This document shows, one piece after another, positions 56,036 to 58,849 of a stretch of 58,849 nt of DNA (positions are counted from its first letter, which is position 1; the number at the start of each line of letters is the position of its first letter). Source of the DNA: Verrucomicrobiales bacterium. GTDB taxonomy: Bacteria > Verrucomicrobiota > Verrucomicrobiia > Limisphaerales > UBA1100. Location: positions 1 through 58,849 of the forward strand of contig SYLI01000060.1 of assembly GCA_005809105.1 (NCBI GenBank), given 5' to 3'. Below the pieces are notes generated by a model. It had not been told where the DNA came from, made no database searches, and worked only from the letters and a program-made list of their open reading frames with translations. Position numbers and translations under genes: made by a program.

Positions 56036-56302
56036 GATCGCGGACGATCCAAGCATGATCACGCGTCAACATGGTCTGATCACGGACGGAACAGCCATTA
56101 TCGCCTCCGTCGCAGCCGGGATCACGGACGGAACAGCCATTATTGCCTCCGGCGCAGCCGGGATCACGGACGATCCAAGCATGATCACGCGTCAACATGG
56201 TCTGATCACGGACGGAACAGCCATTATCGCCTCCGGCGCAGCCGGGATCACGGACGGAACAGCCATTATCGCCTCCGGCGCAGCCGGGATCACGGACGAT
56301 CA
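56036..56302. repeat. Modular GATC tandem array with a 21-bp period
   Basis: The array reads A-B-C-C-A-B-C-C-A(partial). A is 21 bp (56036-56056, 56162-56182), starting GATCRCGGACGATCC. B is 21 bp (56057-56077, 56183-56203), GATCACGCGTCAACATGG plus TCT. C is 42 bp (56078-56119, 56120-56161, 56204-56245, 56246-56287), starting GATCACGGACGGAACAGCC. The higher-order unit A-B-C-C is 126 bp. Every module begins with GATC, and module lengths are all multiples of 21. Copies differ by only a few bases. The C module contains ATTATYGCCTCCGGCGCAGC, matching the family word seen at 47-62 and 130-146. Unlike CRISPR there are no unique spacers. Confidence 0.9.
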
Positions 56303-57538: not shown

Positions 57539-57991
57539 TTAGCCCCGAGGTATCGCCTGCCTTGGTGGCTGGACGTTATTGGGCTGAACCTTTTTCGGCT
57601 CGGTTTTCTTGGGCTGGATGTTGATGGTGGCCGCCTCGTCCTTTCCATCCGATCCTTTCTTTGCCCGACCTCCCACCTGTTGTCCTGGCTGAATGTCCTC
57701 GAGCTTGATGGCCTTGCCATCGTTCTGCAGCTTGGTGGTGTCGGTGACCAGGAACACCCGGTCGGGTTTCCCTTTCGCGCCCGGAAGCGTGATGGTTTTC
57801 TTCGCGACATCCACCGCCTTCACCACGCCGTTGAATGGAAAATACCCGGAAGTTTCCTTCGTGGCTTTCTTCGGGGGTTGCTCGCCTGGTTTTTTATCGT
57901 CCGCTTGAGTGGTGACCACGAGCGACGCGGCCAAGGCACTCGCAAGCGCGATGGAGCGAATCGTGCGAATGGCTATGGGAATAGTTTTCAT
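57539..57991 (-). CDS. Small exported protein with a DUF5666-like beta domain
   Basis: 150-aa protein. Signal peptide MKTIPIAIRTIRSIALASAL, cleaved near TTQADD. Then a Lys/Pro-rich linker, then a compact beta segment (GYFPFNGVVKAVDVAKKTIT, RVFLVTDTTKLQNDGKAIKL, EDIQPGQQVGGRAKKG) with the pattern of small OB-like domains in which a regulatory value is bound, and finally a low-complexity Lys/Pro/Gln tail (KKTEPKKVQPNNVQPP). A ribosome site AAAGGA precedes the ATG at 57991 (read on the minus strand). Role unknown; likely periplasmic. Ends at a clear terminator. Confidence 0.8.
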   Translation of the reverse strand: MKTIPIAIRTIRSIALASALAASLVVTTQADDKKPGEQPPKKATKETSGYFPFNGVVKAVDVAKKTITLPGAKGKPDRVFLVTDTTKLQNDGKAIKLEDIQPGQQVGGRAKKGSDGKDEAATINIQPKKTEPKKVQPNNVQPPRQAIPRG

Positions 57992-58133: not shown

Positions 58134-58162
58134 TTGACATTGGTCGTACGCGACCCCATAGT
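58134..58162 (+). promoter_or_regulatory. Predicted promoter, possible leaderless start, with inverted repeat
   Basis: TTGACA at 58134-58139, a 17-bp spacer, and CATAGT at 58157-58162. Transcription would start about 58168-58170, at or next to the ATG at 58170, and no ribosome-binding sequence is seen before it, so the mRNA may be leaderless. The spacer carries GGTCG-TACG-CGACC, a 5-bp inverted repeat between the -35 and -10 boxes that could be an operator. A full -35 match with a four-of-six -10. Confidence 0.4.
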
Positions 58163-58169
58163 TGTGACG

Positions 58170-58849
58170 ATGCGCATAAGATTTCCCCAGGTTTGGAGGT
58201 TGCTGCTTCCACTCATCGCATTGGTGGCGATGGACTTGAGCACTCCCGCGCTTCGTGCGCAGTTGGGGCTGGGCAGTCTCATGGGCGGCATGGGAATCGC
58301 AAGTGGGCTGCAGGGCATGGGAGGCGGCGGCATGCTTGGCAATGCCATGGGCCGAGTGAATGGCATGATGAATAATCTTGGTAGCATGGGTGGGATGATG
58401 GGCGGTGGAATGGGTGGAATGAACGGCATGGGTGGAATGAACGGCATGGGTGGAATGGGCGGCGGCATGGGAGGAATGGGCGGCGGCATGGGAGGAATGG
58501 GCGGCGGCATGGGAGGAATGGGAGGAATGGGAGGCATGAACGGGATGGGAGGCATGAACGGGATGGGAGGCATGAACGGGATGGGTGGTATGGGAGGAAT
58601 GGGAGGAATGGGAATGGGAGGCATGAACGGCATGGGAGGAATGGGCGGCATGGGAGGCATGGGTGGAATGAATGGGATGGGTGGTATGGGCGGCATGGGA
58701 ATGGGCGGCATGGGCGGCATGGGAATGGGCGGCATGGGCGGCATGGGAATGGGAGGAATGGGCGGCATGGGAATGGGAGGAATGGGCGGCATGGGAATGG
58801 GCGGCATGGGAATGGGCGGCATGGGAATGGGCGGCATGGGAATGGGCGG
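58170..58849 (+). CDS. Exported Gly/Met-repeat protein (partial, cut at right window edge)
   Basis: Open from ATG 58170 to the end of the window (226 codons so far). Signal peptide MRIRFPQVWRLLLPLIALVA, cleaved near RAQ, then a short region LGLGSLMGGMGIASGLQGM. From about codon 60 to the edge almost only Gly and Met, with a few Asn: GGMGGMNGM and GMGGMG units of 3 to 12 residues. Similar GGM tails occur on GroEL, but here the repeat is the mature chain. It may be a flexible, hydrophobic, possibly metal-binding (Met-rich) envelope or extracellular protein. The opposite strand also reads open (Pro/Ile/Met), but only this strand has a signal peptide and promoter. Confidence 0.8.
   Translation, partial: MRIRFPQVWRLLLPLIALVAMDLSTPALRAQLGLGSLMGGMGIASGLQGMGGGGMLGNAMGRVNGMMNNLGSMGGMMGGGMGGMNGMGGMNGMGGMGGGMGGMGGGMGGMGGGMGGMGGMGGMNGMGGMNGMGGMNGMGGMGGMGGMGMGGMNGMGGMGGMGGMGGMNGMGGMGGMGMGGMGGMGMGGMGGMGMGGMGGMGMGGMGGMGMGGMGMGGMGMGGMGMG
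58380..58849. repeat. GGMGGM-coding microsatellite-like repeats
   Basis: Nested repeat of 9-, 12- and 15-bp units built from GGCATGGGA, GGAATGGGC and GGCATGAAC, all in the same reading phase. Repeat lengths are multiples of 3, so changes in copy number keep the frame. The last 80 bp is a very regular run of GGCATGGGAATGG. Such tracts are prone to slippage and assembly error, so the exact length here is uncertain. Confidence 0.9.

Follow-up and report, generated by a model that had tools for sequence, protein, structure and literature searches.

A Gly/Met-rich exported protein interrupted at a contig end, and its relatives in one family of Verrucomicrobiota

The open reading frame (ORF) that runs off the end of the DNA analysed here represents the 5' half of a gene encoding a larger exported, multi-part protein, provided that the join between two contigs set out below holds. 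The window, meaning the whole stretch analysed, is the entire contig C44 (SYLI01000060.1, 58,849 nt), one of 106 contigs in a genome of 3.0 Mb. Given the join to contig C87, the predicted chain shows a signal peptide, a head, a first Gly/Met arm, a core of ~120 residues, a second Gly/Met arm and an Arg-rich tail, in that order. An earlier note on this DNA had described an exported protein that is almost pure Gly and Met, with no other chemistry. The exported low-complexity Gly/Met chain is supported. However, near-purity holds for the arms only, and the protein looked so pure because the contig breaks inside arm 1; the claim of no other chemistry does not hold for the protein as a whole, to which C87 adds the non-repetitive core, the second arm and the basic tail. 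What had seemed a "pure Gly-Met" oddity turns out to belong to a defined family of proteins, apparently not described before, whose architecture can be tested.

The gene at the contig end and its continuation

The ORF begins with ATG and has no stop up to position 58849, which is the end of the contig because the window covers all of C44 (Table 1). The sequence TTGACA-17-CATAGT was found once, against 0.4 occurrences expected, and TTGACA and CAYAGT align as well in G001, a genome of the same genus. An mRNA from this putative promoter would be leaderless or nearly so. In G001 the start codon aligned to the ATG is GTG, and the upstream genes are the same as those of the window, encoding G6PD, a prepilin-like protein and a small exported protein. 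The last of these is divergently oriented (57539-57991, - strand), has no Pfam match and adjoins the head in G001 too. Between the G6PD and prepilin-like genes lies a tandem DNA array (56036-56301) with a 42-bp unit and a 126-bp higher-order repeat, 97% identical.

Table 1. Features of the interrupted gene and of its continuation outside the window
Feature	Position	Strand	Remarks
Promoter-like site TTGACA-17-CATAGT	58134..58162	+	Consensus match only; directly 5' of the start codon
Sec signal peptide, 30 aa	58170..58259	+	From sequence; putative cleavage between ALRA and Q
Conserved head, 45 residues, to residue 75	58260..58394	+	QLGLGSLMGGMGIASGLQGMGGGGMLGNAMGRVNG...; identity to relatives and alignment
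Gly/Met(/Asn) arm 1, 151 residues	58395..58849	+	Open at the contig end; continues on C87
Continuation	C87 = L007:1-836		Outside the window; core about L007:33-398, then arm 2 and basic tail

The signal peptide, MRIRFPQVWRLLLPLIALVAMDLSTPALRA, would be cleaved before Q, and in the alignment the pattern L-x-A followed by Q at the cleavage site is seen again in most relatives. It is followed by the head motif QFxLGGLxxxMxxxxGLQxMG. The protein family as defined here consists of head, Gly-rich arms, core and basic tail. The head is 73% identical to that of G001 and about 40-54% identical to those of other genomes of the family. Arm 1 encodes Gly, Met and Asn exclusively; at least 160 repeat residues had been claimed for it, and we regard the 151 codons counted as close enough.

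The first 25 nt of contig C87 are identical to the end of C44, with orientation and frame both correct. The frame continues for 277 codons on C87, to a stop at 836; it does not break shortly past the window, the outcome that the earlier note had named as fatal to its reading. The last ~70 nt of arm 1 consist of a 15-nt unit (MGMGG), and because the overlapping 25-mer is present four times, at intervals of 15 nt, where C44 ends, the copy number of this unit is not fixed by the assembly. The putative join is well supported, since relatives hold head and core in one ORF, the helicase gene is conserved downstream, and C104, the one other contig of the genome with a Gly/Met-rich ORF at its end, has no overlap with C87 and was rejected as its partner. 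In two genomes, G011 and G002, a single unbroken ORF extends from the signal peptide through head, arm and core to the second arm. G003 is organised alike as far as the basic tail, and its head is very divergent. In G013 one ORF includes head and core, with changes of frame in the arms. On C87 as in G013, the gene directly downstream is convergent and encodes a DEAD helicase of 831 aa.

The core, MFIPRILNPYYGVNF..., comprises about 120 non-repetitive residues between arms 1 and 2. It is kept in four other genomes and has no Pfam family, no NCBIfam family and no credible sequence match in the PDB. Structure prediction from five sequences gave two helices at a pLDDT of 44, too poor for a fold search. 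The tail on C87 is Arg-rich, and the tails of three genomes are basic (K+R 12/63, 15/75 and 11/45), as would suit attachment to an anionic surface or polymer. The C-terminal anchor that the earlier note had proposed to look for was not seen: the tail holds no evident sorting signal of the LPXTG, PEP-CTERM or GlyGly-CTERM type by eye, and it has no NCBIfam hit. There is no Cys in the window ORF or in the continuation on C87.

Coding of the arms and distribution of the family

An open frame through the repeat is in itself little proof of coding, because five of the six frames in the repeat DNA are free of stops. Codon use shows, however, that the arms are under protein-level constraint and are maintained as Gly/Met protein. 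Together the two arms comprise 234 codons (142 Gly, 80 Met, 12 Asn, no other residue), and Gly is encoded by each of its four codons (GGC 58, GGA 50, GGT 25, GGG 9). Simulated unconstrained mutation from GGC reached a maximum of 35 non-GGC Gly codons, against 84 observed, and in every run gave at least 10 residues other than Gly, Met or Asn; the argument is qualitative, because tandem duplication makes the arm sites non-independent. Because of this codon use, and because the head is kept in 13 other genomes of the family, we take the ORF to be coding and the signal peptide, short head and Gly/Met chain first noticed in the window to be real.

Of 20 genomes of the family, 15 gave a match to the head or the core; those matches that carry a name are MAGs of Verrucomicrobiota. 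Outside the family, the core has a single half-match within the order, in G151; the other sampled genomes of the class and phylum have no core match, and plasmids gave no match. The genomes compared show a lineage-specific protein family, belonging to one Verrucomicrobiota family. We found no Gly/Met low-complexity proteins of Verrucomicrobia in the literature, and the protein family is apparently undescribed. Genome assemblies break at the repeats of the gene, so that the complete protein is seldom seen: among the 15 carriers, 13 have a contig end within the gene, and fragmented genomes thus hide a class of bacterial proteins. Only in G003, which is without GGM repeats, and in the 30-contig assembly of G013, with its frame flips, is the gene continuous.

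G013 is the only contiguous relative of the GGM type. Its repeat (L041:5547-7399) flips between GM, WAA and HGR reading frames and back, and here sequencing indels and real changes are indistinguishable. The half-match in G151 (L044:610-750, - strand) lies in a Gly/Met-rich exported protein from another family of the order. There the core's second half, RRSMSSNELQYVAQVAAAEIAKKRG, is recognised clearly, at 29 bits against 7.6 for the best shuffle. A possible first-half motif stands after the second half rather than before it; 3 of 500 shuffles score higher, which is not significant, and as the first half is not above chance we do not claim a swapped order. In the window's own genome, contig C14 (L008:2227-3408, - strand) encodes an exported protein that starts with GGM/FGN sequence, continues into a long middle part rich in Asn, Gln and Gly, and has no hit in Pfam or NCBIfam. 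Contig C104 (L009:3-1136, - strand) encodes an exported protein whose N-terminal part is free of repeats and whose tail, rich in Gly, Met and Pro, is cut off by the end of the contig; this is a second gene broken by Gly/Met repeats.

Possible roles of the arms

Our best reading, which we put a little short of an even chance, is that of a self-associating scaffold protein of the envelope or matrix with abductin-like arms. Among the options raised earlier, a sticky matrix fibre or flexible layer would by analogy be the best fit. After Sec export the arms would remain extended, either disordered or polyproline-II-like, and would adhere to one another via hydrophobic side chains (Met here, Phe/Trp in the G003 ortholog); by the same analogy they should be flexible and self-sticky. 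The core and basic tail could organise the chain or attach it, either to a partner or to an anionic surface, and the result would be a flexible, self-associating layer of the envelope or extracellular matrix. Its mode of action would resemble that of abductin or other Gly/hydrophobic elastomers rather than that of a metal store. No partner, secretion or cross-linking gene was seen in conserved linkage. A more specific version is possible but doubtful: an elastomer or adhesive matrix protein of bacteria, similar to abductin, in which an undescribed helical core would organise the self-assembled arms into a flexible layer. Such a lineage-specific secreted family would then have been overlooked because assemblies break in the gene.

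Copper or silver binding, as proposed earlier, is one alternative. In this reading the chain would bind or buffer Cu(I)/Ag(I), with its MGGM and MGM spacings as periplasmic Met ligand sites, and the Met residues of arm 1 do lie mostly three apart (MxxM, 38 of 52 Met-Met steps) or two apart (MxM, 9 of 52). MxxM/MxM spacings are familiar in Met-rich copper proteins, among them CopM, CusF, CopI and the Mets motifs of Ctr1. Here, in contrast, the arm is without His ligands, there is no His/Cys cluster, and no gene for metal or copper homeostasis lies among the immediate neighbours (G6PD, prepilin-like protein, helicase, ClC channel). Moreover, the ortholog in G003, which has the same core and the ClC-channel synteny (ClC gene upstream), has only 9 Met in 514 residues. 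Its arms are 41% Gly and rich in Asn, Phe and Trp in place of Met, so Met-based metal binding is not conserved, and the Met clusters expected of a copper protein are missing from at least this ortholog. Since the G003 arms keep Gly with Phe/Trp without Met, the conserved arm grammar is, as read from these sequences, Gly plus a hydrophobic sticker rather than Met; the G003 arms could also be an independent replacement with a different role. A study of model compounds also makes the case that Met-rich domains bind Cu(I) weakly and would hardly serve as fixation sites (PMC11840665). The Met-poor ortholog and the lack of a metal gene beside the gene weaken the metal reading, which we consider improbable.

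Variation in the arms fits another explanation, that they are mere flexible linkers lengthened by repeat slippage while core and tail do all the work. Arm composition and length do vary, the tandem units measure 9-24 nt, G013 has its frame flips, and the conserved parts are the head and core. However, the 142 Gly codons diverge silently only, which points to selection on residues, and Met, costly and oxidisable for a linker, makes up about one third of the residues and yet is kept in most of the family; we hold the linker explanation to be unlikely. It is also improbable, slightly more so than metal binding, that the arms form a periplasmic client-binding brush, acting like GroEL tails or a holdase, or a sink for Met oxidation. 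The GGM-repeat tails of GroEL and mHsp60 do bind clients and adopt polyproline-II (PPII) conformation (PMC12571646). In contrast, neither Pfam nor NCBIfam finds a chaperonin equatorial or apical domain here, the arms are several times the length of the ~24-residue GroEL tail, and no linked reductase or protease was seen.

Comparison with known systems

The likeness to GroEL tails drawn in the earlier note holds well for the peptides themselves: those with GGM repeats from GroEL and mHsp60 are hydrophobic and populate PPII helices, and the authors of that work liken them to abductin (PMC12571646). Those are short tails of a cytosolic or organellar chaperonin, whereas here the repeats form long arms of an exported protein. 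Met-rich matrix proteins of mollusc shells, such as NU-5, are likewise secreted; in oyster shell, Met-rich proteins are proposed to form insoluble scaffolds, and one was shown to aggregate (PMC7591529). They differ in being eukaryotic and biomineral-associated, some with acidic regions, and no sequence relation to them is shown. Abductin, the elastomer of the bivalve hinge ligament, resembles the present protein in its export, its Gly/Met-rich repeats (consensus GGFGGMGGGX) and its very low Pro content (PMC13052691). The arms correspond to its Gly/Met-rich repeat domain by composition alone; the N-terminal Ala-rich domain of abductin, with two Cys and Tyr for cross-linking, is absent here, and there is no phylogenetic link. 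In place of that arrangement, the Verrucomicrobiota protein has two arms around a conserved core, followed by the basic tail. Should its arms self-assemble, the protein would be for bacteria what the Met-rich elastic proteins are for animals.
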